IMG/VR virus record: IMGVR_UViG_3300046454_000825
Coordinates: 1-64,000 of that record
DNA length: 64,000 nt
Source of the DNA: a virus
Strand: one strand, 5' to 3'
This document shows positions 5,666-42,325 of this stretch, piece after piece (position 1 is the first letter of the stretch; each line of letters opens with the position of its first letter). A program made the position numbers and the translations under genes. The notes beneath the pieces are model-generated. The model did no database searches. It was not told where the DNA came from and saw only the letters and a program-made list of their open reading frames with translations.

Positions 5666-7049
5666 GTTGAAGTCGACAGTGTTCGAGCGCGGCGATCGCC
5701 TCTACATCGTCTCCGAGGTGGCACCCATCCGGCCGACCGATGAGGAGATCGCGGAGTTCGCCTTCTCACAGGAGCTGATGAAACAGGCTCCCAACCCGGC
5801 GATCAAATGGCTGCAGGGACAGTTCGTCGAGGCCGACAAACCCAATCGCAACGGCCAGCAGTGGACTGAGGGTGAGGTCGCGATCAAGTCGTTGACCCCG
5901 ATGTTCATGCCCGTGACGGTAATGCACGACACCCGCTCGGCAGTCGGCCTGATCGCCGACACAAGGCTCCAGACCCCAGACGCTGATGGCGTTCCGCGTG
6001 CTCGAATCGACAACACCTTGGCGATCTGGTCGCACCGTTTCCCGGAGGTCGCAGAAGAAATCGACATCAACTACGAGAAGGGCTCGTTGATGCAGTCGAT
6101 GGAGGCTCTGTCGCCAGCCTACGACTGCGGTGAGTGCGGTAAGACCTTCGCCAAGTTGCCGGGTGGGGCCGAGCGCGCCAACTGGTGTGAGCACCTCAAG
6201 GCTGGAGAAGGTCGAGGCACTCGTATATTACGCAATGTCGTCTTCACGGGAACCGGACTCATCTTCGGAACTCAAGGTAAGACGGGGGCAAATCCCTCAG
6301 GTCACCTAGAGGTTTTCCAGGAGGAGATCGCCGAGTTTCACGAGAGGGCTCATAAAGAGACTAGGCGAACCGGTAAGCGAAGCGACACACCAAAGCGAAG
6401 GAGAAAGACTTCAATGAGCGAGATCGAGATCAGCCACGACGAGTACGCAAGTCTCCGCGAGCGTCCCTCGAAAGAGGAGCTGGCCGCGGAGAAGCAGCGT
6501 GCCGACAAGGCCACCGAGGATCTCGCGGAGGCGAACAAGAACCTGGAGCAGGCGGAGACCGCCAAGACCAAGGCTGAGGAGGAGAAAGCCGAGGTCGACA
6601 AGAAGCTCAAGGCTGCCGAAGAGGAGAAGGCCGAGGTCACGCTTCGCGCAGAGCGGATCGGCAAATTCGGCGACGGCTTCCTGCACAAGCTCGGTGAGAA
6701 CACGAAGAAGAACCTCACCGAGCAGGCCGGCACGATGGAGGAGGACGCCTGGGAGTCCAGGGTCGCCGAAGTCGAGGAGATGGCCGGCGTCAAGCGTGAC
6801 GCCAAGCTGCAGAGCAAAAAAGGCGGCGAGGACAAGGACTCGAAAGAGACCCCCGCGGCCGAGACGTCTTCAACGGAGAGCGACGACAAGGAGTTCTCCA
6901 AAGAGGAGCTGGCCTCCACCGTCGTGCTCGACGGCGACGCGGAGGACACCAGCGGAGGAGGCGGCGGCAGCGGTGAGCCGTCCGTCAACCAGCGGAAGTC
7001 CGTGATGAGAGGTCTCATCCCGGGCCGAGAGCCGGCAAAGACCGAGTAG
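5658..7049 (+). CDS. capsid maturation protease, with in-frame scaffold domain
   Basis: 463 aa. The N-terminal ~230 residues resemble prohead proteases, which cleave scaffold and capsid proteins inside the prohead. Residues 61-66 (KPNRNG), H90 (MPVTVMHDT followed by VGLIADT) and S147 in QSMEA fit the His and Ser positions of a serine prohead protease. C157, C160, C177 and H179 form a zinc-knuckle-like set. The C-terminal ~210 residues are an acidic coiled coil, i.e. scaffold-like, and have their own start at 6414. The full-length product is thus a protease-scaffold fusion, as in lambda C/Nu3. Catalytic assignment is inferred. Confidence 0.75.
   Translation: MAKLKSTVFERGDRLYIVSEVAPIRPTDEEIAEFAFSQELMKQAPNPAIKWLQGQFVEADKPNRNGQQWTEGEVAIKSLTPMFMPVTVMHDTRSAVGLIADTRLQTPDADGVPRARIDNTLAIWSHRFPEVAEEIDINYEKGSLMQSMEALSPAYDCGECGKTFAKLPGGAERANWCEHLKAGEGRGTRILRNVVFTGTGLIFGTQGKTGANPSGHLEVFQEEIAEFHERAHKETRRTGKRSDTPKRRRKTSMSEIEISHDEYASLRERPSKEELAAEKQRADKATEDLAEANKNLEQAETAKTKAEEEKAEVDKKLKAAEEEKAEVTLRAERIGKFGDGFLHKLGENTKKNLTEQAGTMEEDAWESRVAEVEEMAGVKRDAKLQSKKGGEDKDSKETPAAETSSTESDDKEFSKEELASTVVLDGDAEDTSGGGGGSGEPSVNQRKSVMRGLIPGREPAKTE
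6224..6229 (+). promoter_or_regulatory. internal -10 element TATATT inside protease gene
   Basis: ACTCGTATATTA at 6219-6230 repeats exactly the sequence before the gene at 12278 (12257-12268). Here it lies inside the protease coding region about 185 nt upstream of the nested scaffold start. An ATG 5 nt downstream is out of frame and opens only a short ORF, so any transcript would serve the scaffold gene. Confidence 0.4.
6414..7049 (+). CDS. scaffold protein from internal in-frame start
   Basis: 211 aa, identical to the C-terminal part of the protease gene from its residue 253. The ATG at 6414 is preceded by AAGGAGAAAG (6398-6407), nearly the same RBS as the capsid-region gene at 7077. The product (MSEIEISHDEYASLRERP...) is an acidic coiled coil with EEK heptads over residues ~20-85, then a low-complexity Ser/Glu/Gly tail and a short basic C-terminus (RKSVMRGLIPGREP), the usual scaffold layout with a capsid-binding basic end. 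An internal start lets scaffold be made in excess over protease. Confidence 0.75.
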   Translation: MSEIEISHDEYASLRERPSKEELAAEKQRADKATEDLAEANKNLEQAETAKTKAEEEKAEVDKKLKAAEEEKAEVTLRAERIGKFGDGFLHKLGENTKKNLTEQAGTMEEDAWESRVAEVEEMAGVKRDAKLQSKKGGEDKDSKETPAAETSSTESDDKEFSKEELASTVVLDGDAEDTSGGGGGSGEPSVNQRKSVMRGLIPGREPAKTE

Positions 7050-22098: not shown

Positions 22099-22562
22099 TG
22101 CCAGAGCCAGCCCTACAAGCACTGGAGCGCTCCTTCAAGGGGCTGCGAATCGGCGCGACGCTGGACATGCAGAAGCTGAAGGACCGTGCCGAAAAGGACG
22201 GCCTGATCGAGCGCGACGAGCAGTTCCACCTGGCGGTGGCCGGTCTCGCAGAGGAGTTCTTCCTGTGGACGTCGACGAAGATCAAATTCGCCACCGCGTT
22301 CGTTGACGCAACGGGCCAGAGAGATTCACCCTTCGACCGTCCACATATCTCGGTCGGCTGCGAGATCTACACACCGGTGCCGGTGGCGATCAACGCGGTG
22401 GTCATGGAATGGGACGTGACCGACCGGAATGAAACGGTAGGCGCGACCGTGGCGCTCGGCGTCGCGAGTTCCGATCAGACCACCAAGTTCAAGGGCGCTG
22501 TGCATCTGACCTTCCAGGGCTACGGCGCGCCACTCAACACCTTCGACGACGCCGAACTATGA
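22098..22562 (+). CDS. minor tail protein, possible H-type lectin-like
   Basis: 154 aa. An N-terminal helix (LQALERSFKGLRIGATLDM) precedes a beta-sandwich-like part, IKFATAFVDATGQ and later VMEWDVTDRN, reminiscent of H-type lectin strands. Co-translated with its neighbours through TGATG and ATGA overlaps. Located between hub and fibre genes, so probably a tail-tip component that could bind the cell envelope; the lectin relation is only a pattern impression. Confidence 0.5.
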   Translation: MPEPALQALERSFKGLRIGATLDMQKLKDRAEKDGLIERDEQFHLAVAGLAEEFFLWTSTKIKFATAFVDATGQRDSPFDRPHISVGCEIYTPVPVAINAVVMEWDVTDRNETVGATVALGVASSDQTTKFKGAVHLTFQGYGAPLNTFDDAEL

Positions 22563-25500
22563 AAAAGACGATCTTTGCCGGCTTGACGATCCTCGAACCA
22601 GGGGAGGGCCTCAGCACTGACAACGGGTCGTTCGTCGACGCAGATCCGCAGATCGTCGATCGCTTGCTGGAAATCGGAGCCAAAACCCATCGCCACACAG
22701 GCCTGGCCGGGCTCTCCAACCCCTCCGGTGCGCCGGTGGCGAGCATCGTCGCCTCAGGGGGCGCTCTGCCATCGGATCTGGCCATCTCCGTCGGATACAC
22801 ACTGGAGGACTCCCAGGGCGGCGAGACGCTGCTGTCGCCGATCACGGTGGTCGGCACGCCGGGCGAGATCCCCGCGCCGCCAGCGGCACCCAGCGCCCAG
22901 GTCAGCCACGCGGCCGGGCAGCTTGAGGTCAACACCTACTACTACGCGACGACCTTCGTAGACAATGAAGGCGGCGAGACGGAGCTCGGACCCGCGGTCA
23001 ACGCCGAGCGCCAGCCCGGATTCGCGTCGGGCCAGGTCATCCTCACCCAGCTCTCCTTCGGCATGGCTGCAGCCGGCGCGGCAGGCTGGCGTCTCTATCG
23101 AGCGGTCGGTGGCGACACCTTCAACCTGCTCGCGACCGGCAGCGGAGACGAATTCGTCGACGATGGTAGCCAGCCGGTGAGCTGCGACGTCCACCCGCCG
23201 GCGGGCGAACAGAACACGACGGTCGGATCGTCCTCGCTGCTCGTGACGCTGCCGTCCGCGGTCCCCGGGCAGGTCTTCATCAACGTCTATGCGTCGATCT
23301 CGGGCGACTTCGGTGGCAGCAGCCTGCTGGGGCAGTTCCCGCTGGCCAGCGCCGGGCAGATCGCCGTCTTCCGCTCGCTCGAATTCTTCGACGTCAACCC
23401 GCCGTCGGTCAACCTCTCGATCGGGGGGGCGCACCAGATCGACCCCGACACCGAGCTCCTGGACTGGCACTGGAAGCGCCCGGTCCTCGCGTCGGGTGCC
23501 CTCGGGTCGGGCGTGACCGGCGACGTGCGGCTCGTGAAGAGCACAGGCGAGCTCTACGCCGTGCTCGCGCCGTCCGCAGTCGCCTCGGGCGCGAGCGAAT
23601 GGGTGAGGATCGCCAGCGCTGGCGGCGGCGGCAGCGGCAGCGTCGGCCCGCAAGGACCCACCGGCCCACAGGGTCCAGAAGGGCCAGCAGGTCCGAAAGG
23701 TGCCAGCGGGGCAAGCGGTGCGATCGGTCTGACCGGGCCGCAGGGTCCGACCGGCCTGACGGGTGCCACCGGGCCACAGGGTCCGACCGGTCCCGGTGAC
23801 AGTTGGAAGCCGCCCGTCTTCGCATCCGCCAGTCTCGGCTCGGGTGTGCTCGGCGATGTGAAAATGGTCGAGCAGGAAGGTGAGCTCTACGGTGTGCTCA
23901 GCGCGTCCGCCTCCACCGCCTCCGCGTGGGTGAAGCTGAGCAGCGCCAGCACGCTTGAAGCGAGCGCGACGCAGGGCATCGTCGCGCCGGTCCAGAGGCT
24001 CACCATCCGGGCCTCCGGGGTGGCGATCGTCGACATCGTCAAACAGTCGGCTGGGCGCGCGCTTTACACAGTCACCGTTCCTCCTGTCGCCGGCCCCCAG
24101 GGACCAGAAGGACCGAAAGGAGCAAGTGGCGCATCGGGTGCAATTGGCCTGACCGGTCCGACCGGTCCACAGGGTCCAGAAGGACCCGCCGGTCCCAAAG
24201 GGGCTAGTGGTGCATCCGGTGCCATCGGGCTGACCGGGCCACAAGGTCCGCAGGGAGAAAAAGGCACAACTGGGGAAAAAGGTGAACCAGGAGAAACCGG
24301 TCCTAAAGGCGAAACAGGATCAACGGGTGCTACTGGCGGAACGGGTCCGCAGGGACCAATTGGTCCGGGCAATAGTTGGAAGCCTCCGGTTCTGGCGTCG
24401 GGCAGTCTTGGCTCGGGTGTACTCGGCGACGTCAAAATGGTCGAGCAGGAAGGCGAGCTCTACGGTGTCCTGAGTGCCTCAGCCTCAGTCGCTTCCGGCT
24501 GGGTAAGGCTAAGCAGTGCAAGCTCGCTCGAAGCAAGTGCCACACAGGGTCTTGTCGCCCCAGTTCAGAGACTCACGATTCGGGCATCTGGAGTAGCGAC
24601 TGTCGACATCGTCAAACAATCCGCAGGCCGTGCCTTATACACAGTTACGGTGCCCCCAGTCGCAGGCCCCCAGGGGCCACAGGGAGTGCAGGGTGAAAAA
24701 GGAACCACCGGGGAAAAAGGTGAAAAAGGTGAAAAAGGATCGACCGGCGAAAAAGGCGAAACCGGGTCGACTGGATCGACCGGGGCCACCGGTGGGACTG
24801 GGCCGCAAGGTCCGGTAGGGCCAGGTAATAGCTGGAAGCCCCCTGTCCTCGCATCGGGAAGTCTGGGGTCAGGTGTACTCGGTGACGTCAAAATGGTCGA
24901 GCAGGACGGTCAAATTTATGGCGTTCTCGGGGCATCGGCCACGGTGGCGTCGGGGTGGACAAGACTGGCGAGCGGCATCTTGACCGCTAGTGCTAACAAC
25001 AGTGTCCCTGGAGTAGCCCAGCTTGTGAACAAGCTCACCTTCGAAGGTGCGGAGGGAGTGAGAGTTGCCATCTCCCAACCGAAACTTGGAGAGGGAGTAA
25101 TCACCGTGAAAGCGGGTGCGGGGGGGCTGATCTATAAAGGGGAGAGTTCCACCAATCTGGCAACAACCAACTTAGCGTGTCTTCGGAAGAACAAAGAAAA
25201 ATGGAGCGAAGTCACCGAAATATGCCTTTCCATTGAATCCTTGAACTGGACCACCGCTGAAGATCTTCTCCTAAAAGGGATGGCAGTCGGTTCGGTCATA
25301 GTGATCTCTGTTCAAAGCGAAGAGAACGTCAGGCCTATTCGCCAGATGTTCAAGATTACGAGCATCGAATCGACGGCGAACGGTCCGATCGCCAAAGTGG
25401 TTGGCCTCTCTACTACTTCGACAGCTACTGCGAACGAAATCGCCTTCAAGGAACTGGAGGTAGAGTTCTACGCCCCGTTTCATTACGGTCTCGTCACGGC

Positions 25501-25996
25501 CTTGCCAGCATCGCCAAGGCTCCTTGACAGGTGTAGCTTTATCGCGGATGAAACAAACGGTGTCATCTGGGAGCTGCTTTATGACGGCGAAGGCACAAGG
25601 CCGTGGAAGAAGATTGGTGGACCTCCACTCTTCAATGAGGTCGCTACCCAGGAGACGATCAAATCAGCGACCTACGCGAACCTAGCGACAGAAGGTCCGT
25701 CGGTCAAAGTGCCGCTACTAGGTGATTACGACGTAGCAATCGGGGCTGGGATCGGGTCGTTCTCGCCCTCAGTAGAAATCAATATGAGCTACGCGATCGG
25801 CGGAACCGCCGCTGTGGATGCTGATTGCCTCAAAGTCTTCCCAGGCCCCAACGGATGCTTCGTGGAGGCTAAGCGGGTACGGCGTAAGGCATCAATCGCG
25901 AAAAACACCACACTCTTGAGTAAGTACAAAATATCCGGTGGCGAAGGATCATTCTACTTCCGCTGGATGAGTGTTGATCCGATCAGAGTCGGCTAA
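22559..25996 (+). CDS. collagen-like tail fibre
   Basis: 1145 aa. Residues 1-~315 are a globular beta domain shared with the next gene, likely the tail-attachment part. Three Gly-X-Y collagen-like blocks follow (DNA ~23641-23795, 24094-24371, 24666-24827), the first two each followed by a full ~97-residue beta module beginning SWKPPV and ending [11 protein letters not shown], the third by a partial copy. The last ~250 residues are unique and include [11 protein letters not shown]-type strands, probably the receptor-binding tip. Collagen repeats imply a trimer. Codons differ between repeats although the protein is nearly the same. Confidence 0.85.
23641..25000 (+). repeat. three collagen-block plus beta-module repeats
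   Basis: Gly-X-Y runs at ~23641-23795, 24094-24371 and 24666-24827 alternate with modules at 23798-24090, 24374-24662 and a partial one from 24830. The modules are near identical in protein but carry many synonymous differences, and the third collagen block is richer in GEKG units than the first. Confidence 0.8.
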
Positions 25997-26004
25997 GGAG
26001 AACC

Positions 26005-27399
26005 ATGAAAAAGACACTATTCGCAGGCTTGACGGTTCTCGAAGCCGGTGAGGGACTCGACACCGACAGCGGAGCCTTCACCGGCCGCGACCGCGAAACC
26101 ACGGATCACCTGCTCGAAGTTGGGGCGAAGACGCATCGCCACACCGGGCTCAACGGGCTGGCCTCGCCGTCGGTCGCCCTGGGTGCGGCCGTCGTCGCTT
26201 CCGCGGGCACGATCGGCGCGGATCTTGACGTCTCCCTCGGCTACACGCTGGAGGACAGCGTCGGCGGCGAGACGCTGATCTCGCCCGTGACGGCAGTCAG
26301 CACGGGGTCGCCGGTGGAAGGCCCGCAGGCAGCGCCCAGCGCCGCGTTCGACAGCGCTGGCGGCTCGCTGCTCGTGAACACCTACTTCTACGGCGTGACC
26401 TTCACGGACGGCGAAGGCGGCGAGACGCCACTGGGTCCGACGGTCAACGTAGAGCGCCCGCCAGGCTTCGCCTCCGGCCGCGTCGACCTCTCCCAGCTCA
26501 ACTTCGGGCTTGCCGCCGCTGGCGCGAAAGGGTGGCGTCTGTACCGCGCAACGGGTGGAGGGACGTTCAACCTGCTCGCCACGGGTGGCACTGGCGAAAG
26601 CACATTTGTCGATGACGGGACGAAATCCGTCGAATGCAGCGTACATCCGCCAGCCGGGGAAACAAATACGACACTGGGCATCAACACGCTGCTGGTGACG
26701 TTACCGACGACCGGCCTGGCTTCGGCGAGCTTCATCAACGTCTACGCCTCGATCACCGGTGACTTCGGGGGTGGTTCCTTCCTGCAGCAGTTCCCTGTCG
26801 CGAGCGCCGGCGCTGTCGTGCCGTTCTCGAAACTCGAACTGCTCTCGATCAGCCCACCGTCGGTGAACCTCTCGATCGGCGGCGCGCATCAGATCGACCC
26901 GGACACCGAGCTGATCGACTACCACTGGAAGAGACCGGTGGCCAACGTCGGAGATCTGCCTGGGACCGCCGAAGAGGGCGACACGCGCATGGTGTCGTCG
27001 TTCTCCTCACCGACCGCCTACGTGTTCCACAACGGCAAATGGGAACCGTGGCAGGCCGGCGGCAGCGGGACCACAGGACCCTGGACCAGGATGACGCCGC
27101 TAGAAGGCGAATGGGAAGGCACGAGCTCTCCCGAATGGCCACCGGCGTTCCGGGTCAAGGGCGACGAGGTCGAGCTCGCCGGCGGCATCATGGAAGGAGC
27201 GGACGGAGTCACGATCTTCACCTTCCCGGTGGGAGCAAGACCCGCGGCAAACGTGCGGATAGGCCTGGGCGAGGGAGTGGCCAACGCCGGCATCACCCTC
27301 GAAGTCAAGACCGACGGCAGGCTGATCGCGATCAACTCTCAGAATGCGATCGTCTACCTGACCGGCTTGTCCTTCCCGCTGGGTGCTCCGCCCCCATGA
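26005..27399 (+). CDS. second tail fibre, paralogue of the collagen-fibre N-domain
   Basis: 464 aa. Residues 1-~315 align with the preceding fibre from the first residue (MKKTLFAGLTVLEAGEGL versus [18 protein letters not shown]) to [13 protein letters not shown] and the WKRPV that follows. Then comes a different ~150-residue C-terminal domain without collagen repeats (GDTRMVSSFSSPTAYVF; WTRMTPLEGEWEG). RBS AAGGAGAACC. A tandem duplication probably gave two fibres with a common base and different tips. It overlaps the next gene by ATGA. Confidence 0.8.
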   Translation: MKKTLFAGLTVLEAGEGLDTDSGAFTGRDRETTDHLLEVGAKTHRHTGLNGLASPSVALGAAVVASAGTIGADLDVSLGYTLEDSVGGETLISPVTAVSTGSPVEGPQAAPSAAFDSAGGSLLVNTYFYGVTFTDGEGGETPLGPTVNVERPPGFASGRVDLSQLNFGLAAAGAKGWRLYRATGGGTFNLLATGGTGESTFVDDGTKSVECSVHPPAGETNTTLGINTLLVTLPTTGLASASFINVYASITGDFGGGSFLQQFPVASAGAVVPFSKLELLSISPPSVNLSIGGAHQIDPDTELIDYHWKRPVANVGDLPGTAEEGDTRMVSSFSSPTAYVFHNGKWEPWQAGGSGTTGPWTRMTPLEGEWEGTSSPEWPPAFRVKGDEVELAGGIMEGADGVTIFTFPVGARPAANVRIGLGEGVANAGITLEVKTDGRLIAINSQNAIVYLTGLSFPLGAPPP

Positions 27400-28808
27400 T
27401 CCTGAAATTCATCAATGGCAGTCACGTTCAGCAGAACATGTGGGGCGAGGCGCTGCATCACCTGCTCCACTTTCCGTTCGAGGCAATCAACCTCACTGCG
27501 ACCATCGACTTCGTCGCTTCGATCTCAGGAGGGCATACCGACCTAGCGTCTACCAATTGGACCTACGACAGCCCCATCTCGTCCACGAAAGTACGTAAAG
27601 ACGCTCCTTCATTCAGCGGTCTGCAAAGTGCGCTGGTTGCCGAGGCCGCGAAGTGGGGCTTGGAATTCTCGGCGGAGCGTTTCTACATGGAGACCGCTGT
27701 GCATGAGACAGCTCACGCTCTGTACGCAGCACTGCCCCACGCGAGGCGGGTGGCGATCGCGCAGATGTTCGGGGCGAAAAGTGACTCACTGAGTGAAATA
27801 CAGCCGAACGTCGCCTGGCAGGATCGGATCATCGAGGGGATCGCGGAGACCTTCAAGGAGGCGTTCCTGCCGCGACGCTTCAGGGTATTCCCGAACAGGA
27901 CCAACAAGCGGATCTCCTACTCCATGTTCCCCGAATTCAGGGCACTGTGGCGGGCGGCAGCACCGGAAGTGGGGATCGAAGAAGTGGGCACTGTTGAAGA
28001 ACAGATGCACAAACTCGAAGAACGTGACTCCCTGCAGGTAGGACCGAAACTCAAAAATAACACCGAAGAACCGCCGACCGAAGCTGAACTCGACACGCTG
28101 TGGGCGGAATGGAAGCCGGCCGAAGACAGAGGTTGGCACATGGCCGTCGTCTCTGACCCAAACGTCGCCTATCGAACGGTGCCCAATAACAGTGGAAGCC
28201 CGCATCGCTTGCCGAAGGAAGTCGGGGCCATTTGGCAAGGCGAGTTACTCGGAGGCGGGAAAGATGGAATGGGAGTGGTGATTTTCGAGCGATCTTTTAA
28301 CTCTCACTTCGAAGCCACGATCACTGAAGATGGTGAAGTCCAGGTCTTTCTATCCGACCAGACCCTGAAAAGTGGCTACAAGCTATCGGCAAGGCGAACG
28401 AAAAGAACCGGCGAAATATACACCTACAGATTGCGCCTAGAGAGATGGGACGGGGGTGTTCCCGAAGTTCTCCATGAAGGGACGGTCGATGAGAGCGCCT
28501 CCGGTATCGGCGACCTTGGCCTTAGCGCCAAAGACGGTGTTGTTACTGCCTGGGCTGGAGTGCCGGTGGTCCCAATCTTCTCGGTGAACGACAGCAAATA
28601 CAACGAAGGCTACGCCGGCATCGGCCTCCTCCGCGACGATCTCTTCACCGGACTCTCCGAGCCTGGGCTCACGAACTTCCGAGCCGGCACGATTCTCTCT
28701 AACCAGCCAGGCCCACCGGTCGAGGTTCCTCCGCCCAATATCACACCTGCCGGATCGCTGGGTGGCTCCCTACCGCACAAACGTCCAATCGTAGGAAATA
28801 CCCAGTAA
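27396..28808 (+). CDS. tail protein with zinc metalloprotease motif and jelly-roll domain
   Basis: 470 aa; ATG at 27396 in an ATGA overlap with the second fibre. Residues 99-110 contain the zincin motif AVHETAHALY (H103, E104, H107), followed ~40 residues later by RIIEGIAETFKEAF, whose Glu is placed like the third ligand of gluzincins. The C-terminal half (residues ~280-430: VVIFERSFNSHFEATI, YTYRLRLERWDGG, GYAGIGLL) looks like a concanavalin-type jelly roll, often carbohydrate binding. A virion-borne protease that digests a surface protein or cleaves the fibres fits. No signal peptide. Confidence 0.65.
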   Translation: MILKFINGSHVQQNMWGEALHHLLHFPFEAINLTATIDFVASISGGHTDLASTNWTYDSPISSTKVRKDAPSFSGLQSALVAEAAKWGLEFSAERFYMETAVHETAHALYAALPHARRVAIAQMFGAKSDSLSEIQPNVAWQDRIIEGIAETFKEAFLPRRFRVFPNRTNKRISYSMFPEFRALWRAAAPEVGIEEVGTVEEQMHKLEERDSLQVGPKLKNNTEEPPTEAELDTLWAEWKPAEDRGWHMAVVSDPNVAYRTVPNNSGSPHRLPKEVGAIWQGELLGGGKDGMGVVIFERSFNSHFEATITEDGEVQVFLSDQTLKSGYKLSARRTKRTGEIYTYRLRLERWDGGVPEVLHEGTVDESASGIGDLGLSAKDGVVTAWAGVPVVPIFSVNDSKYNEGYAGIGLLRDDLFTGLSEPGLTNFRAGTILSNQPGPPVEVPPPNITPAGSLGGSLPHKRPIVGNTQ

Positions 28809-28838
28809 CGGGGTAGAGATATGTGTTAGGTTGCGCTC

Positions 28839-28864
28839 GCCGCCTGAGTCAAGGCGGCTTTTTT
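28839..28864 (+). terminator. intrinsic terminator at end of late operon
   Basis: GCCGCC (28839-28844), an 8-nt loop, GGCGGC (28853-28858), then six T. It lies 31 nt after the stop of the tail protease-like gene. A TAGGTT element (28827-28832) lies just before it, too close to serve a gene before the terminator. Confidence 0.85.
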
Positions 28865-28929
28865 GTGCTCACGAACGGAGCGCAACACCCGGACCCGCAA
28901 GGGTCAAACCACGCAAAGGGGGACACCCA

Positions 28930-29529
28930 ATGCGACGCGGAGCACTGCTCCTATTCACCACCGCTGCGCTGTTTACAGCGGTCGCACCGGCCGGATCTGT
29001 CGTTGTCCAGCCGGGCTCCATAGATGCATGTCCACTGAAGTTCACCGGTGGGCAGTTCGTGCAGGTGGCGAAGCAAGCATGGAACGAGCGAAAGTGGAAG
29101 GACCACACTCCGGTGGGTCCAGGGCTCCGACAAAAAAGCCGCACAATGCGATATTGCGCTGTGAGCAGGCACGCTGCGCGTCGGATGGCCGAGATCTGGT
29201 CTTCCCACAAGCGGCAGTTCAAGCTCTGGCAGCGCTACCGTCGCATCGCGCCGGAAGAAGGATTCGTCGGCGAGGGGAAATGGCTGCGGTGGTTACCGAT
29301 CCCGCGCTATATCGTCGAATGCGAGACAGAAGGTTACGGGAACGTCCCGGGGTCGAAGGGTCCGCGCATGTCGGCCGTAAACGCCTCTTCTGGGGCCGAG
29401 GGCGCGGCGCAGTTGCTCGGCTGGAACAATCCGTGGCCGGTCGTGACGGCAAGCGATTACGTCGCTTACTGGGAAGAAGCCGCCTACGTGATGGCGGTGC
29501 AGGGGTCTTCAGCCTGGGCATGTGCCTGA
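28930..29529 (+). CDS. exported transglycosylase-like lysis protein
   Basis: 199 aa, ATG at 28930 with RBS AAAGGGGG. An N-terminal signal peptide (MRRGALLLFTTAALFTAVAP) implies export by the host Sec route. The C-terminal part (YIVECETEGYGNVPG, then SGAEGAAQLLGW, then VMAVQGSSAWAC) follows the Rpf-like/actinobacterial transglycosylase pattern: catalytic-type Glu132 next to Cys131 and a closing Cys198. It would cleave peptidoglycan glycan strands and is the best endolysin candidate. The middle helix region (residues 40-110) is not recognised. No holin lies next to it. Confidence 0.65.
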   Translation: MRRGALLLFTTAALFTAVAPAGSVVVQPGSIDACPLKFTGGQFVQVAKQAWNERKWKDHTPVGPGLRQKSRTMRYCAVSRHAARRMAEIWSSHKRQFKLWQRYRRIAPEEGFVGEGKWLRWLPIPRYIVECETEGYGNVPGSKGPRMSAVNASSGAEGAAQLLGWNNPWPVVTASDYVAYWEEAAYVMAVQGSSAWACA

Positions 29530-29581
29530 TAGGCTGACCTCCTCTGCGGTCCGGCTGGTGGGCCAACGGGGTGGATTCAGC

Positions 29582-29614
29582 GCAAAAAGGGGGGCCGCAA
29601 GGCCCCCCTTTTGC
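29582..29614. terminator. bidirectional intrinsic terminator
   Basis: GCAAAAAGGGGGGCC, a GCAA tetraloop, and GGCCCCCCTTTTGC. A/T runs on both sides let it stop transcripts from either strand; it lies between two convergent genes (28930-29529 and 29635-29919). Confidence 0.85.
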
Positions 29615-29634
29615 AGCTCTGAGGTCTCCGCCGA

Positions 29635-29919
29635 CTACTCGGTCGAAGCCTCTCCGCCGTCGCCGCCGGCCGGACTCTCCGGCGCGGGCTCTGCGGGCGT
29701 CTCCGGCTCGGCCGGCGCTGCCGGCTCTCCGGGGGCGGGCTCGGCCGGGGTCTCCGGCTCCGCCGGGGTCGGCTCGCTGGGAGCCTCTCCCCCCTCGGGC
29801 TCGGCCGGACTCTCCGGCGCGGGCTCCGCGGGCGACTGGTCGGGAGCGTCGGGGGTCTCGGGAGCCGGGGTCTCCGGGCTCTCCGTGGGCTCCGGGGCCG
29901 GTGTGTCGCTGGCCTCCAT
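29635..29919 (-). CDS. Pro/Glu-rich repetitive small protein
   Basis: 94 aa on the minus strand; ATG at 29919 with RBS AAGGAG 6 nt upstream. The whole product is low complexity (EPTPAEPETPAEPAPGEP type), acidic and certainly disordered. The plus strand here also lacks stops, but that product would be Gly/Ser/Ala repeats without an RBS. The composition resembles the middle of the protein at 34760-35536. Bounded by a bidirectional terminator. Function unknown. Confidence 0.55.
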   Translation of the reverse strand: MEASDTPAPEPTESPETPAPETPDAPDQSPAEPAPESPAEPEGGEAPSEPTPAEPETPAEPAPGEPAAPAEPETPAEPAPESPAGGDGGEASTE

Positions 29920-29966
29920 ATTGCGCTCCTTCGGTCGAATTAACGTTGCCGGGCGACCATATCGAC

Positions 29967-29996
29967 TTGTGCGGCGTCCTGCGATCGCGATAGGTT
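29967..29996 (+). promoter_or_regulatory. sigma70-type promoter of the replication operon
   Basis: -35 TTGTGC (29967-29972), 18-nt spacer, -10 TAGGTT (29991-29996). Predicted start near 30003, then an AGGAGG RBS at 30012 for the gene at 30030. Confidence 0.55.
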
Positions 29997-30029
29997 GCTC
30001 CCCCCACAAACAGGAGGAATTTACGGCGA

Positions 30030-36105: not shown

Positions 36106-36426
36106 ATGGAAGCCAGAGCAAGAACCAGCGATCCGGATACATCCCACGCCGCAGCGAAGAGTGTCAAAAAGCTGACGCTCGTTCAGACGCGGGTGTTGGC
36201 GCTATTCAGGCGGTGCGGCTCGATGACCGACACCAGGCTGATCGAGACATGGAATAAGGAACGCTCTCGGTTCCCCGACAGCTACCCCCAGATGTCGGAG
36301 TCAGGCCTGCGTACTCGCCGGCGCGAACTCGTCGACCTTGGTGACCTTAAGGACTCAGGGCTCAGGCAGGAGCTGCTGTCGGGGCGTAAGTCGATCCTCT
36401 GGTGCAGGCGTGTCGATCGCTGGTGA
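36106..36426 (+). CDS. winged-helix DNA-binding protein
   Basis: 106 aa. It starts ARTSDPDTSHAAAKSV, followed by TLVQTRVLALFRRCG, a D-x-L helix and SGLRTRRRELVDLG, closing with SGRKSILW. This order is familiar from small phage HTH proteins in which TSHAAA precedes a MarR-like winged helix. Likely a regulator or DNA-binding accessory. It overlaps the glycosyltransferase start by GTGA, so it is coexpressed with the sugar-transfer cluster. Confidence 0.7.
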   Translation: MEARARTSDPDTSHAAAKSVKKLTLVQTRVLALFRRCGSMTDTRLIETWNKERSRFPDSYPQMSESGLRTRRRELVDLGDLKDSGLRQELLSGRKSILWCRRVDRW

Positions 36427-37211
36427 AGCCGCTGGTCATCATCCCGATGTACCTCACCGAGGACTCAGACGTGGAGACCACGATGGAAGCTGTGCGCAGC
36501 GTCCGCAAGACGGTCAGTGACAGCGTCGAGATCCTGGTCGTCGACGATCACTCACCCGAGCGGCAGTTGGTCGACGGTATCGAAAAGGGGCTGGGGCGCT
36601 TCGACGCCGAGCTCCACCGCAAGGATGAGAACTCCGGCTTCTCCAAGACCGTCAACGTGGGCCTGCAGCGAGCGCGCGACCAAGGTCGGGACGCGGTTCT
36701 CCTCAATGCCGATGTTGAGATCAGCACCCCCGGCTGGCTGAAGATCATGCAGAAGACAGCCGATGCCAACCGTCGGCCGGCGGCTGTTGTCGGTGCGCTG
36801 CTCCTATACCCGACGGGCTTGATCCAGCACGCGGGGATCTATTTCTCCCTGCTGACCCGGACCTTCGATCACATGTACAAGTTCGGGCCGGGCAACCTAC
36901 CCGAGGCGTTGATCCAGCAGAGCAGGCCGGTCACCGGCGCGTTCCAGTTCATCCGTCACGACGCGCTGATGAAGGTGGGGCTCTACGACGAGGGCTTCCA
37001 GATGGCCCACGAGGATGTCGACTACTGCATCCGGACCTACCTTGCTGGCTTGGAATGTGTATACCAACCGAGGGTCAGGGCGTTTCACTTCGAGATGATG
37101 TTCCGCGGTAGGCCTTCTCCCAAAGTGCAGGAATGGCAACAGAAGTCGTGGGTCTATTTTGCTACTAAGTACTCAACCCAAAATTTCGCAGGGTTAGTTC
37201 CCTTCGTCTAA
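36423..37211 (+). CDS. family 2 glycosyltransferase (GT cluster, gene 1)
   Basis: 262 aa; GTG at 36423 in a GTGA overlap. GT-A fold signature: LVIIPMYLTEDSD at the first strand, EILVVDDHSP (nucleotide-sugar binding Asp pair), NSGFSKTVNVGL, LLNADVEI (the D-x-D-type metal site) and HEDVDYCIRTYLAGL, with the acidic catalytic-base region. Transfers a sugar from a nucleotide donor; acceptor unknown. No TM helix, so cytoplasmic. First of six glycosyltransferase domains in 7 kb. Confidence 0.85.
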   Translation: MKPLVIIPMYLTEDSDVETTMEAVRSVRKTVSDSVEILVVDDHSPERQLVDGIEKGLGRFDAELHRKDENSGFSKTVNVGLQRARDQGRDAVLLNADVEISTPGWLKIMQKTADANRRPAAVVGALLLYPTGLIQHAGIYFSLLTRTFDHMYKFGPGNLPEALIQQSRPVTGAFQFIRHDALMKVGLYDEGFQMAHEDVDYCIRTYLAGLECVYQPRVRAFHFEMMFRGRPSPKVQEWQQKSWVYFATKYSTQNFAGLVPFV

Positions 37212-37219
37212 GGAGACCA

Positions 37220-38860
37220 ATGAACGAGTGGTGGAGATACGAGCAGCTTTCCAGCCGGTGGCCCTACGATTGGGCTCCAGCAACCCGCGGCGATCGGCCG
37301 TGGGATCAGCTCGACTTCCACCTAGACCTGGGGTGTGGTCGCGTGCCCAAGGCGCGCATGGGGATCGACCGCAAATTCTCCGAGGGCGCGACGGATCTGG
37401 TCATAGATCTGGATGAGATATTCCTCTATCTGATGGAATCCGAGCGCAGCGGGCACCGCATGCAGGAGCTCCTGGAGTTCCCCGGCGAACGTAGACTGCC
37501 GTTCCCGACCGGCTCAATCGAGTCGATCATCACCCATCACTGCTTCGAGCACATCGGCGAGGGTTTCGAGCGGCTGATGGAGGAGTGCTATCGGGTGCTC
37601 AAATGGGGTGGCGTCATGCGTATTGTGACTCCCGTATTCCCATCATCGGCGGCGGTCTCTGAGTACGACCACAAGCGCTACTTCATGCAGGGCACGCTGA
37701 TGGGGTTCTGCCAGGAGCTGCCCGGCGGCGCGTCGATCTATGACGCCTTCGCCGAGCGCTACAACTCGTGCTGCTTCCGCCAGATCGACGAGGAGGTTTC
37801 ACCTCCGACGCCGGCGGAGAAGCAGTGGACAACCGAGGATGTGCGGGAGATTCGAACCACACTATGGAAATTCAGTGACGGTGAAGATGAGCCCGAACCG
37901 TCGATGTTCATACCGGAGGAGACCAATGATTTTAGTCCAATTCAAGCTGGACAAGGTGATCATCTTCGAGGGGACGATGATGGACTCGGCGCTGCCGAGC
38001 CTGGGGGAAACGATCAAAATTCCGGGGAGCCGGCGCAAACTGAAAGTGGGGATGGTGACGAGGCGGCTCTCCAAGGGCCGAGCGAAGCAGCGCAACGGGT
38101 TGATCAAGCAGGAGGCGGTGGTGGACCTAGTCCCTTCGCATCCGTCTGCGTCCTCAGCTACGAAAGGCTGAGCCTGCTGCGTGAGTGCATCGGCTCGATG
38201 CTCGCCGGCGCACACTCACCCTTCGAGCTGATCGTACATGACGATGGCTCTCGCGATCCCGAGCTCCGTCAGTGGCTCTTGCAGATGTCCGAAGAGGGCG
38301 TGATCTCGACGCTGCTGATGAATTCCCCGGGCTGGAACGAGGGGCAGGGCATAGCGATGAACCGGATGGCCGCTGTCGCGAAGGGCGATCCGATTATCAA
38401 GTGCGACCAGGACCTCGTCTTCGAGCCCGGTTGGCTGCGCAGGGTTCAAGAAGTGCTCAACACCAACGCAAGGGAGACCCACGAAACGGGTGAGCCGATG
38501 ATCGGCGCGCTGGGTATCTTCAAGTACTTCACCGATCCCGTCGACCATGAGAGGATGTTCCTTCGGGACTGGATCTCCTACGACGAAGTTCTCGATTTCG
38601 TCGGCTCGTTCATTGCGATACCGCGGACGGCGTGGGAGATCTTCGGGCCGTGGGGAGAGCGCAGCGCCGCCTTCGCCGAGGACGCCGTGTTCAAGGACAC
38701 ACTGCAGAAGACGGAGGGCTGGTGCTGCGCCCTGACGAAAGAGGATCTGGCCCGCAACCAGGGGTTCGGCGTCGGGCCTTCGACCGTGGTGGTCGCCGAG
38801 GGCACAGTGCAGGCGATCCAGACCGGTCCTAAGGTGATCGAGCCGGGGGTGATCGAGTGA
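37220..38860 (+). CDS. fused SAM methyltransferase - glycosyltransferase
   Basis: 546 aa, RBS AAGGAG. Residues 1-~235 form a class I methyltransferase: LDLGCGRVP (residues 35-43, SAM binding), DLVIDLDE, and THHCFEHIGEGF around motif IV. Residues ~236-305 are an acidic Gly/Gln-rich linker. Residues ~305-546 are a GT-A domain: VCVLSYERLSLL, VHDDGSRDP, KCDQDLVFEPGW (D-x-D type). The linker frame has low third-position GC and overlaps another gene (37926-38171) in a different frame. No start codon exists between linker and GT strand 1, so the GT seems to depend on the fusion. Confidence 0.75.
   Translation: MNEWWRYEQLSSRWPYDWAPATRGDRPWDQLDFHLDLGCGRVPKARMGIDRKFSEGATDLVIDLDEIFLYLMESERSGHRMQELLEFPGERRLPFPTGSIESIITHHCFEHIGEGFERLMEECYRVLKWGGVMRIVTPVFPSSAAVSEYDHKRYFMQGTLMGFCQELPGGASIYDAFAERYNSCCFRQIDEEVSPPTPAEKQWTTEDVREIRTTLWKFSDGEDEPEPSMFIPEETNDFSPIQAGQGDHLRGDDDGLGAAEPGGNDQNSGEPAQTESGDGDEAALQGPSEAAQRVDQAGGGGGPSPFASVCVLSYERLSLLRECIGSMLAGAHSPFELIVHDDGSRDPELRQWLLQMSEEGVISTLLMNSPGWNEGQGIAMNRMAAVAKGDPIIKCDQDLVFEPGWLRRVQEVLNTNARETHETGEPMIGALGIFKYFTDPVDHERMFLRDWISYDEVLDFVGSFIAIPRTAWEIFGPWGERSAAFAEDAVFKDTLQKTEGWCCALTKEDLARNQGFGVGPSTVVVAEGTVQAIQTGPKVIEPGVIE
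37926..38171 (+). CDS. small gene overprinting the linker of the fusion
   Basis: 81 aa in the +1 frame relative to the fusion gene. The ATG at 37926 has a strong RBS (GGAGGAGACC, the same style as the fusion's own start). The product begins MILVQFKLDKVIIFEG, continues TIKIPGSRRKLKVGMVTRR, and looks like a small beta-rich basic domain. Its codons end in G or C as elsewhere in the phage, whereas the linker frame does not; so this frame is the constrained one. Function unknown. A sequencing indel that joined two neighbours is an alternative explanation for the fusion, not for this gene. Confidence 0.7.
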   Translation: MILVQFKLDKVIIFEGTMMDSALPSLGETIKIPGSRRKLKVGMVTRRLSKGRAKQRNGLIKQEAVVDLVPSHPSASSATKG

Positions 38861-39054
38861 GGTACGCGGTGCTGTTCACCACTTCGCCCGAAGCCGAAGA
38901 AGGCAAGTCATGGGCGATCGTCGAAGCCGACGAGCCGGCGCAGGCTGTCTCGATGGTCGGTGGTCGCACGGTGGCCATGGATGACAAAGCCCTGTGCATC
39001 CCACTCGATGAGAAGCCGATCCCCGTCTACGCGACGGTTGGGTGGCACACATGA
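38857..39054 (+). CDS. small hypothetical protein in GT cluster
   Basis: 65 aa, GTG start in a GTGA overlap. Beta-alpha-beta pattern (RYAVLFTTSPEAEEGK; WAIVEADEPAQAVSMV), a compact fold. ATGA overlap with the next gene. Not recognised. Confidence 0.7.
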   Translation: MRYAVLFTTSPEAEEGKSWAIVEADEPAQAVSMVGGRTVAMDDKALCIPLDEKPIPVYATVGWHT

Positions 39055-39266
39055 GCGATCCGCAGCTCGACAAGATCCTCAAGGACGCGATCGAGGACGC
39101 CAACCTGGCCAGCAAGAAGAGCAGGCCGAAGTGGATGGGCGGCGCGGCTCCGCGTGAACGCCTGTCGGAGTCAGGGCGCAGGAAGCGGCGCAAACTCAAC
39201 AAGGCGAACGCGAAGCTCCGGCCGAAGGTCAGGAAGCGGAGTAAGCACGGGAGGCAGGTGCGATGA
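39051..39266 (+). CDS. small basic protein in GT cluster
   Basis: 71 aa; ATG at 39051 in an ATGA overlap. The C-terminal half is strongly basic (RRKRRKLNKANAKLRPKVRK), as in nucleic-acid binding tails; the N-terminus is a short acidic helix. ATGA overlap with the next glycosyltransferase. Function unknown. Confidence 0.7.
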   Translation: MSDPQLDKILKDAIEDANLASKKSRPKWMGGAAPRERLSESGRRKRRKLNKANAKLRPKVRKRSKHGRQVR

Positions 39267-40120
39267 AGGCAGGCATCGTGATACCGGTTGGCCCTGGCCG
39301 GGAAGAGAACCTGGGCCGAGCGCTGGTGTCGATCGAAGAGATGAAGTTCCCGCCCGAGCACATCGTCCTGGTCTGCGACGGGCCGGAGTCAGAGGTCAGC
39401 GATCCGGGGATCTCCCTTCCTCACTCGCTCGTTGTTACGCCTCACAAGCATGAGCCCGGTAGGGAGCAGCCCCGCAACGTTGGGGTACGTGTGCTGCAGG
39501 ATCTGGGCGGCTTTACTCACGCCTGGTTCCTGGACACCGACATCATCCTGGATCCCTGGGCGCATTCGCACTTTCAGGCTGCGATGGAGGTCGACACACT
39601 GGAGCGGATCCTCGTCGGTCCCTACGACTGGCTTGCGGCGAACACCAAGGTGCCAGTGCCCGACCTGCGAAACGATCCGCGCTGGCCATCGTTCGACAAC
39701 CACGACATGCCCGAGGCCCTGACCAACGACCTCAGTGCCGGCTTGGCCTGCTTCAGCGGCAACCTGATCTGGCCGATTGAGGCCTTCGTTCGGATCGGCG
39801 GCTTCTGGAACGAGCTCCACCACGGCCGCTGTGAGGACGGCGAGCTCGGACTCCGTGCCGTGGCCTGCGGCATTCCGATTAGCTTCGTCGCCGCGGCGCG
39901 CGGTTGGCATCTCGATCACCCGATCAACGGCGAGCTGACGCTGCAGCGCAATGAGCGCGACGTCCCGATGCTGAACGATCGCCATCCCTGGGTCCAGGGC
40001 GAGGGGCTATTTGTCGTCGAAGAGGACGGCAAACGGTTCAACACTCACTGTCGCTGTGGCTGGTCAGGCAACACGATGGAGATCTGGGAGCACCAGGCAG
40101 GGTGTGAGCAAGCCCGATGA
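39263..40120 (+). CDS. GT-A glycosyltransferase with C-terminal Cys/His motif
   Basis: 285 aa. GT2-like layout: AGIVIPVGPGREENLGRAL, HIVLVCDGPE, REQPRNVGVRVL, FLDTDIIL (D-x-D). The later CEDGELGLRAVACG matches the 'ED.dl..R....G' base motif. The last ~30 residues (HCRCGWSGN, then HQAGC) form a Cys/His set like a mini zinc ribbon, unusual at the end of a glycosyltransferase and maybe for acceptor or partner binding. Linked to its neighbours by ATGA overlaps. Confidence 0.8.
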   Translation: MKAGIVIPVGPGREENLGRALVSIEEMKFPPEHIVLVCDGPESEVSDPGISLPHSLVVTPHKHEPGREQPRNVGVRVLQDLGGFTHAWFLDTDIILDPWAHSHFQAAMEVDTLERILVGPYDWLAANTKVPVPDLRNDPRWPSFDNHDMPEALTNDLSAGLACFSGNLIWPIEAFVRIGGFWNELHHGRCEDGELGLRAVACGIPISFVAAARGWHLDHPINGELTLQRNERDVPMLNDRHPWVQGEGLFVVEEDGKRFNTHCRCGWSGNTMEIWEHQAGCEQAR

Positions 40121-40902
40121 GCCGTCTTCTCGTCTGCATACCGACCATCGAGGGCCGGGAGAAGTTCCTGGAGCGAGCCATGTGGGGCTATCGCACTCGC
40201 ACGCCTCACACCGACATGCACATCGAGGTCGTTCACGACTATCCTACTTGTGGTCAGGGTTGGCAGGCGGCGGTCGAGCGGGGACTCTCTCGCTTGCAGC
40301 CGCCCCCTGACTTCATCCACTTCGGCAATGACGACATTATGGTGGCCGAGGGCTGGTTGCCGCCGCTAATAGATGCCGCCACACAGGGGTTTCTGCCGGC
40401 GTCTCGGATGGAGCCGGCTGGCTACCACCTTGGCGAAGAGCCGGCGGAAGCGATTGCGCCATGGTGGGTCAAGCCCAACGAGCGCAGCTACTTCTACTCC
40501 GATCTGCCCGAGAACCAGCCGAAGAATGACTGGGCTCCGGTCGACCACAGTGCATTGCCATTCTGTTCGGTCGGTCAGTGGCTGAAGATCGGTCGGTTCA
40601 TCCCGATTCACTTCGGCACTGACAAGTGGTTCTATCACCGAGCCCGTCAGGAGGGCATCACCGCGGTCGCGCGTATGGACTCCGTGATCTTCAACTACGC
40701 CACTCAGATCGGTAGGCAAAAGGGTGCGTGGACCGAGACCGACATCATCGACTTCGACTGTGTCTTCGCCTATCCGGCCTACGTGGAGGGGCGTTTGAAG
40801 CCAGAGGAAGAGGACCCCCAACGTCTCACGGGTTCTGGCCTGGCGATGGTTAGGCGCTGGCGTAAGGCGAACTTTGACGGACCACACCACTGGGAGGCTT
40901 GA
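40117..40902 (+). CDS. GT-A-like glycosyltransferase
   Basis: 261 aa. It begins LLVCIPTIEGREKFLERAM with HIEVVHDYPTCG and FIHFGNDDIMVAEGWL: an Asp-Asp/metal-site pattern of GT-A enzymes, more diverged than its neighbours. The second half (HFGTDKWFYHRARQEG) would hold the base-containing helix. Same TGATG/ATGA-coupled chain, so it is expected to act on the same glycan. Substrate unknown. Confidence 0.65.
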   Translation: MSRLLVCIPTIEGREKFLERAMWGYRTRTPHTDMHIEVVHDYPTCGQGWQAAVERGLSRLQPPPDFIHFGNDDIMVAEGWLPPLIDAATQGFLPASRMEPAGYHLGEEPAEAIAPWWVKPNERSYFYSDLPENQPKNDWAPVDHSALPFCSVGQWLKIGRFIPIHFGTDKWFYHRARQEGITAVARMDSVIFNYATQIGRQKGAWTETDIIDFDCVFAYPAYVEGRLKPEEEDPQRLTGSGLAMVRRWRKANFDGPHHWEA

Positions 40903-41684
40903 TGGACACCACGCTTTTGATCTCGACCTTCAACCGTGCCCCGCTTCTTGATCGGTCGCTGGCGCGCCTGGCGCAGCTCACCGTTCCCGACGAGGTGCTG
41001 GTCGTCGATGACGGCAGCACCGACGAGACAGCCGAGGTCTGTGATCGCCACGCGGATCTCCTGCCGTTGACCTACATCTACAACCACAATCCCGAGTGGT
41101 CGATCTGCTCCATGGCCCGCAACATCGGGGTCAAAAATGCCGCCAACGAGTGGATCATTACCTCCGAGCCCGAGCTCTTTTTCGTCACCGACGTCGTTAA
41201 GCAGTTCGAGTACCTGCAGCCCGAGCATCCGGAGCAGGTGATCAGCGCTGGCACGATCTACTTTCAGCCCGAGGGAGGTCCGGATCCGAGCACGAATGTC
41301 GAGGGCCTGGAGGTCGCTGGCGACTACACGCCGCCGACGGGGATGGAGGAAGCGATCGGCTGGGTCGCTCCGTTCTCGGCTCTCTACAACCGCAACTGGC
41401 TGGAGCATGTAGGTGGGTGGGACGAGGAGTTCCCGGGTCCGTGGGGCTGGGACGATATCGACCTGCTGACCCGTCTGCGGATCAAAGGCATCAACCAACA
41501 CATTGCGCTCGACGTGAAAGCCCTGCACCAGTGGCATGGGCCGAAACATCGCGGCGACGTCGACTTCCAGAACGAGCAGTACTTCCGGGCCAAGGACTTC
41601 GTCGCCGGCGGCGTCGAGTCACCGGATCTTCCGGACCTAATCGCCAACCAGGACCGTGAGTGGGGGGTGATCGTTCCCCGATGA
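40902..41684 (+). CDS. family 2 glycosyltransferase
   Basis: 260 aa; ATG at 40902 inside TGATG. Textbook GT2: TLLISTFNRAPLLDRSL, EVLVVDDGSTDET, ARNIGVKNAANEWII, then TSEPELFF at the metal-site position. WGWDDIDLLTRLRIKG gives the acidic base. No membrane segment. The clearest of the six glycosyltransferases by similarity to chain-extending enzymes. Overlaps the next gene by ATGA. Confidence 0.88.
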   Translation: MDTTLLISTFNRAPLLDRSLARLAQLTVPDEVLVVDDGSTDETAEVCDRHADLLPLTYIYNHNPEWSICSMARNIGVKNAANEWIITSEPELFFVTDVVKQFEYLQPEHPEQVISAGTIYFQPEGGPDPSTNVEGLEVAGDYTPPTGMEEAIGWVAPFSALYNRNWLEHVGGWDEEFPGPWGWDDIDLLTRLRIKGINQHIALDVKALHQWHGPKHRGDVDFQNEQYFRAKDFVAGGVESPDLPDLIANQDREWGVIVPR

Positions 41685-42325
41685 AGTACGAGGAGCAGCT
41701 CATCGAGGAGGTCAAGACGTGGTGCATCCAGGATCCGGAGAGACGCGCGGAGAAGATGCAACGCGAGCGCATCCGGCATCCCAAACTGATCAAGGATCTG
41801 CTGCTCGACAAGCTCGACACGTCGACCATGAAGATCCTGGAGGTCGGTGGTGGACCCGAGCCCTTGAGTGACCTGCTCGACTTCGAGTTCCGCATCGTCG
41901 TCGACCCCTGCGCTGACGAGTACGCAGAATTCTTCCCGACTCCAGATCACCTGAACATGGAGGCCGAGGACATGGGAGACAGCACCTGGCACGAGACCTT
42001 CGACCTGATCATCTGCACCAACGCGCTCGACCACGTTCGGGATGTGCCATCGGTCATGAGCAGGATCTACCGGTGCCTCAAGCCGGGTGGTTACTTCGCT
42101 GTCATGTGCGCCGAGAACAACGCGATCACCAACCCGCACCCGTGCCACAAGATCAACCTGACCGCGGCCGACCTGCACCGATCGTGCGACAAGTGGGCCG
42201 AGACCTGCTGGGAGCTTACTTATAGTAAGGACGGGTATCGCTATGGCTGGGCCGAGTACCAGGGCAAGTGCGGCCAGCCGGCCTTCGCGATTCTGTTCCG
42301 CAAGGCGGTCGGGTATGAGCAGTGA
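41681..42325 (+). CDS. SAM-dependent methyltransferase
   Basis: 214 aa. KILEVGGGPEPL (motif I), FRIVVDPCADEY (acidic end of strand 2), and FDLIICTNALDHV (motif IV region) with LKPGGYFAV are those of a class I methyltransferase acting on small molecules or sugars. Located among glycosyltransferases, so O-methylation of a sugar is the natural inference. It overlaps the GT4 gene by 11 nt. Confidence 0.85.
   Translation: MKYEEQLIEEVKTWCIQDPERRAEKMQRERIRHPKLIKDLLLDKLDTSTMKILEVGGGPEPLSDLLDFEFRIVVDPCADEYAEFFPTPDHLNMEAEDMGDSTWHETFDLIICTNALDHVRDVPSVMSRIYRCLKPGGYFAVMCAENNAITNPHPCHKINLTAADLHRSCDKWAETCWELTYSKDGYRYGWAEYQGKCGQPAFAILFRKAVGYEQ

Follow-up and report, generated by a model that had tools for sequence, protein, structure and literature searches.

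In this study, we report a 546-codon open reading frame from an uncultured phage that joins a methyltransferase (MTase) to a family 2 glycosyltransferase (GT) and that contains, within the linker between the two enzymes, an 81-codon gene in another frame. The window analysed here is a stretch of 64,000 nucleotides, part of a 78,875-bp virus record. Our reading, to which we assign a probability of about 0.68 on the strength of one fusion-bearing sequence, is that an old small gene was overprinted by a fusion linker that arose de novo. The old small gene and the new linker would then share the same bases, a case of dual coding that we infer from the sequence. A fuller version, which we hold to be rather probable if a little less so, is that the fusion formed across a living gene whose synonymous sites were tuned to spell a disordered linker, and that two related loci (L002 and L001) and the window represent stages of this process.

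Sequence searches and null models

IMG/VR was scanned with the fusion, the GT and the MTase, which yielded the relatives L001, L002, L003, L006, L008, L019 and L030; several of the IMG/VR relatives appear under more than one locus id. Codon-usage scores of the small and linker frames were computed over identical bases. Two null models were used for the linker. In the first, the small protein was held fixed and codons were drawn from the phage's context-dependent usage, with 440 control windows. The second permuted only the small gene's own synonymous codons, with codon content fixed, in 20,000 permutations.

The fusion and its two enzyme domains

The fusion extends from 37220 to 38860 on the + strand, from ATG to TGA, and encodes 546 aa; the frame and the 81-codon frame nested in it at 37926-38171 are both present as an earlier note on this DNA had claimed. 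The MTase part (37220-37897, + strand) carries the class I SAM motif DLGCG and is nearest to the MTase of L002 (64%). Pfam identified Methyltransf_11 (PF08241) at residues 35-133 (1.7e-8; 35.4 bits against a gathering score of 21.2), and DLGxG is invariant in the relatives, which places this part among the class I SAM methyltransferases. The GT2 part (38132-38857, + strand), with DDGS and DQD motifs, is nearest to the GT of L001 (73%) and matched Glycos_transf_2 (PF00535) at residues 308-416 (1.7e-14; 54.6 bits against a gathering score of 23.3). A check of the GT-A fold with Foldseek gave matches to GT2 structures at E about 1e-7, and the domain belongs to glycosyltransferase family 2. In the structural model of the fusion the GT was well predicted, residues 227-303 had pLDDT values below 50, and the mean pLDDT was 59, for which reason the MTase part of this model is considered poor.

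The GT has no start codon of its own, as proposed earlier: the start codon map contained no ATG, GTG or TTG in the fusion frame from 37904 to 38198, and the start codon at 37904 has no Shine-Dalgarno sequence. Since the fusion frame offers no such codon near the GT, the GT would be made only by translation through the linker.

The nested small gene

The small gene (37926-38171, + strand) encodes 81 aa in the +1 frame relative to the fusion. Its Shine-Dalgarno sequence, GGAGGAG (37915-37921, + strand), ends 4 nt before the ATG and has an energy of -9.5 kcal/mol, a strength reached by 3.5% of random positions. GC content by codon position was 0.54/0.42/0.80 in the small frame, with third-position GC of 0.87 over 37926-38128, and 0.85/0.56/0.35 in the linker frame, where third-position GC over the overlap was 0.35. 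The strong ribosome binding site, the G/C-ending codons and the poor third-position GC of the linker frame that had been described from the sequence were thus all recovered. Codon-usage scores were +0.27 bits per codon for the MTase, -0.35 for the linker frame, +0.33 for the small frame and +0.38 for the GT. Along the sequence, these scores favour the MTase frame as far as about 37900, the small frame over 37926 to about 38110, and the fusion frame once more in the GT, so that the coding signal switches frame near 37926 and returns near 38110.

An AF2 model of the small protein, built from two sequences, was all-beta with pLDDT of 81-89 over residues 1-60 and about 50 over residues 62-81. This tail (38110-38171, + strand), modelled with low confidence, overlaps the start region of the GT and has no counterpart in L001. 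Foldseek searches with the model returned weak matches only, including the CarD N-domain and eIF5A, and comparison with Pfam and PHROG families gave no significant match. The small gene of L001 is a homologue with 39% identity (E=3e-11, from a single comparison). Neither blastn nor tblastn matched the fusion or the small protein to any of 50,697 phage records, and the L001 small protein had one match in the phage records, which was insignificant. Scans of viral contigs with the small protein returned nothing except L001's own copy, and among five related virus records it was found in that of L001 only. Codon-position identities between the two small genes were 0.48/0.60/0.46 over 48 codons, which are few and highly diverged, and the comparison with this one homologue over these codons gave no signal of purifying selection on the small frame. 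The suggestion that the middle gene was kept alive inside the linker is favoured indirectly, by the intact frame, the strong Shine-Dalgarno sequence, the gene-like codons and the modelled fold.

Relatives and the ancestral gene order

The MTase, a small gene and the GT occur in that order, tightly spaced and all separate, in L001, L002, L003, L006 and L019; in L008 the order is kept but the spacer is longer. This arrangement in five relatives and L008 makes the three-gene order ancestral, in agreement with the earlier note. In L030, an independent GT with its own ATG lies downstream of a different MTase; the region L030:2882-5732 is rearranged, with the MTase followed by another GT2 and a second MTase, and then the GT. 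Every relative examined has the MTase and the GT as genes of their own, the fusion occurs in the window only, and the linker frame as a continuous frame is absent from all relatives. The small frame, with its homologue in L001, was pre-existing and the fusion and linker are derived, again as had been supposed. Relatives of the GT in cellular genomes were distant and partial only.

L002 and L019 share one type of small gene (36%) and the window and L001 another (39%), while the small genes of L003, L006 and L008 look unrelated to both types. Counted over L001, L002, L003, L006, L008 and L019, the small genes found between the two enzymes are of at least four or five unrelated kinds. Since the small genes differ among relatives, the junction appears to be a place of small-gene exchange, and from these sequences the gap between MTase and GT resembles a small-gene cassette site within this glycan cluster.

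In the trees, the MTase of the window grouped with that of L002 (64%, support 98/98) and the GT with that of L001 (73%, support 99/99); the small gene is of the L001 type. By these groupings the MTase and GT come from different lineages and the window is mosaic, and a recombination boundary must lie near the end of the MTase. The sequence GGAGACCAATGA at the MTase start (37212-37223, + strand) is repeated at 37918-37929, at the start of the small gene (11-mer, 2 matches with 0.03 expected). The copy of GGAGACCAATGA near the MTase end thus repeats bases of the MTase start, close to this recombination boundary. As L001 and the window carry different MTases, the loss of the MTase stop may have happened on two occasions.

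Loss of the MTase stop and the L001 intermediate

For INTERMEDIATE, the C-terminal ends of the MTases are RKHE* (L019), RKYE* (L030) and IPKEE* (L002). In L002, L003, L006, L008 and L019, the MTase reaches its stop ahead of the small gene or at it. The L001 MTase lacks a stop both after RKHE and at the start of the small gene, and reads 37 codons into that gene (5704-5816), with a relative phase identical to that in the window; both loci are stop-loss overlaps. The L001 small gene (5704-5910), the homologue of that in the window, shares its stop with the start of the GT as TGATG (5908-5912). The L001 GT is already in the MTase frame, and a TAA at 5814 is the sole separator of MTase and GT. In the window the MTase frame is stop-free, the TGATG is gone and the small gene extends about 40 nt into the GT. 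On this comparison of sequences, L001 is an intermediate stage toward the fusion. The shared stop and start signal could be lost harmlessly only if the fusion already made the GT, which suggests the order of events.

One element of the earlier reading failed, namely that a TGA overlapping the ATG of the small gene is the original MTase stop. This TGA, at 37927, is in the wrong frame, a third one that holds 11 stops from 37882 to 38182, and for that reason it marks nothing. In L002, which has the nearest MTase, the stop does overlap the ATG of the small gene as TGATG, in the MTase frame itself, and the window codon aligned with this stop is AAT.

Composition of the linker frame

In the fusion frame, the linker (residues 227-303; 37898-38128, + strand) is acidic, Gly-rich and predicted to be disordered (pLDDT <50). 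The openness of this frame was rejected as evidence, since 42% of 68-codon windows in the phage's other genes were open in the same relative frame, and the chance of an open linker frame given the small protein was 0.11 under plain codon usage and rose to 0.29 when neighbour context was taken into account. Three observations do go beyond chance: the amino-acid composition of the linker, the homology of the small frame to a genuine gene in L001, and the three-gene order conserved among the relatives. Under the first null model, the disorder-promoting fraction was 0.866 against 0.686 ± 0.036 expected (z 4.9), Arg and Lys together numbered 2 against 9.3 expected, and net acidic charge was 12 against about 0 expected. 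None of the 440 controls reached the z-score of the linker for disorder or charge, and one reached that for Arg and Lys. Under synonymous permutation, disorder had z 3.35 (P printed as 0.0 in 20,000), with P=0.003 for Arg and Lys and P=0.03 for charge; no control reached the disorder or the Arg and Lys score, and 15 windows reached the charge score. The P values are somewhat optimistic, because the features were picked after the linker had been seen.

The synonymous sites of the small gene spell an acidic, Gly-rich, Arg/Lys-poor linker, and this skew indicates that selection has probably acted on the fusion frame. The L001 homologue had no such skew over its full length (z -0.5). The exception was an excess of charge over the 37 codons shared with its MTase (P=0.004), a pattern compatible with selection on a tail that is translated. 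Both the chance-level openness of the linker frame and the mosaic origin of the window are points beyond the earlier reading.

Alternative explanations

An unlikely alternative, and the one that survives best, is that the fusion alone is translated and the small frame is a dying relic, 81 codons left over from a recent fusion. The L001 homologue is only 39% identical, with no excess of change at third positions; the small gene has lost its stop and its tail is extended; and small genes are exchangeable among relatives at this junction, so that of the window may be dispensable. A relic, however, would hardly have kept a strong Shine-Dalgarno sequence and ATG, a frame free of stops and frameshifts, and codon usage equal to that of neighbouring genes, and residues 1-60 are predicted with a confident fold. 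Synonymous change sufficient to tune the linker would also have given a dead frame time to gain stops.

We consider it quite improbable that the fusion is an assembly or sequencing error and that the actual phage has separate genes. The fusion is known from one metagenomic record, annotated long same-strand overlaps are mostly errors (PMC2478687), and the small frame has a strong AGGAGG with GTG codons immediately upstream of the GT region (38110-38123). A single miscalled base, however, cannot yield three clean genes on the three-frame map of starts and stops, because the GT-proximal starts are all in the small frame, which is stop-free before 38169. There is no homopolymer longer than 5, L001 (a separate assembly) shows the same-phase overlap and a GT in the frame of its MTase, and an error does not produce a composition skew of this kind. 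The AGGAGG and the two GTG codons at 38110-38123 may be left over from a former start signal of the GT.

That a -1 frameshift out of the small frame produces the GT, as a small protein-GT fusion, or that the GT has an unusual start of its own, with the MTase-GT fusion incidental, is very improbable: the GT frame does lie at -1 relative to the small frame, with an overlap of about 40 nt, but the small frame contains no X XXY YYZ slippery heptamer, the fusion frame has no near-cognate start (ATN or NTG) from 37941 to 38167, a shift is unnecessary where the direct frame is open, and the linker composition indicates selection on the fusion frame. A GGGAAAC at 38005-38011 is in slippery register in the fusion frame, with about 0.4 such sites expected by chance over this stretch by our estimate; a -1 shift there would reach a TGA at 38041 and give an MTase without the GT.

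Proposed origin and likely function

We therefore return to an old small gene overprinted by the fusion linker. In a phage glycan-modification operon, separate MTase and GT2 genes would once have flanked a short third gene. Loss of the MTase stop would have let the MTase frame run through the whole small gene into the GT, giving one polypeptide, while the small gene persisted in the +1 frame by internal initiation at the Shine-Dalgarno sequence (37915-37921) and the ATG at 37926. The fusion frame over the small gene would form an acidic, Gly-rich, disordered tether. Once the GT was made within the fusion, its own start, in a TGATG overlap as in L001, would have become dispensable and been lost; independent translation of the GT would have ended and the small protein lengthened into the GT region.

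The upstream GT2 gene of the same cluster (36402-37211, + strand) is syntenic in L001, L002, L006 and L019. The fusion is one of a group of GT2 and MTase genes spanning 36402-42325, and a tail-fibre-like gene (22559-25996) lies upstream of it. This 1145-aa gene matched many tail fibre and collagen-like minor tail families and is a possible glycan acceptor. Nearby, the ORFs at 26005-27399 and 27039-28808 share about 360 nt; as the codon score switches frame only near 27350, the start of the second gene is probably downstream of that of its longest ORF. In the region 28740-30000, flanked by two well-scoring genes, none of the forward frames scores well for coding.

A link between virion glycosylation and phage genes for GTs and MTases has been reported (Freeman et al. 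2023, as cited in PMC13313380). Here too a phage carries GT and MTase genes, clustered at 36402-42325; unlike there, the enzymes are fused, and no sequence match was found in 50,697 phage records. It is plausible, from the gene neighbourhood alone, that the tethered MTase and GT act on one glycan.

Comparison with known overlapping genes

In stop-loss same-strand overlaps (Fonseca et al. 2013, PMC3887535; Sabath et al. 2008, PMC2542354), an upstream gene without its stop reads into its neighbour in another phase, and L001, with 37 codons, is a plain case. The window differs in that the extension crosses the whole neighbour and joins a third gene, which produces a fusion together with a gene nested entirely within it.

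In the E/D pair of phiX174 the inner gene is the newcomer, whereas in the window the inner gene would be older and the outer frame over it new. The two cases are alike in that a full gene lies inside another, the two being in different frames and having separate start signals; such nested phage genes, gene E within D among them, are reviewed in PMC8227390. In viral overprinting, the ancestral frame has codon usage nearer to that of the genome (Pavesi et al. 2013, PMC3744397; review PMC8227390), and de novo frames are rich in disorder-promoting residues (PMC3744397; PMC8227390). The window has both traits: the small frame, with its L001 homologue, scores +0.33 and the linker frame, which no relative has as a continuous frame, -0.35, as expected of overprinting. 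Unlike in those cases, the de novo product is a fusion linker and not a new protein. Among prokaryotes, 0 of 715 same-strand overlaps longer than 60 bp were real, the longest real one being the 56 bp of holD-rimI (Palleja et al. 2008, PMC2478687). The window resembles holD-rimI as a same-strand overlap of two genes that would both be functional, and differs in its length (246 bp), in being fully nested and in its phage rather than cellular setting. No named precedent for a gene nested in a fusion linker was found in open-licence papers.

Gene callers pick the long ORF and would probably miss the small gene. The usual view of fusions is that they join adjacent genes, and most long same-strand overlaps in prokaryotes are errors of annotation. 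If our reading is true, it would add a route by which stop loss carries a gene through its neighbour into a third gene while the neighbour is kept. The locus would provide a natural example of de novo linker evolution constrained by an older coding frame, with the separate and intermediate stages present in relatives.
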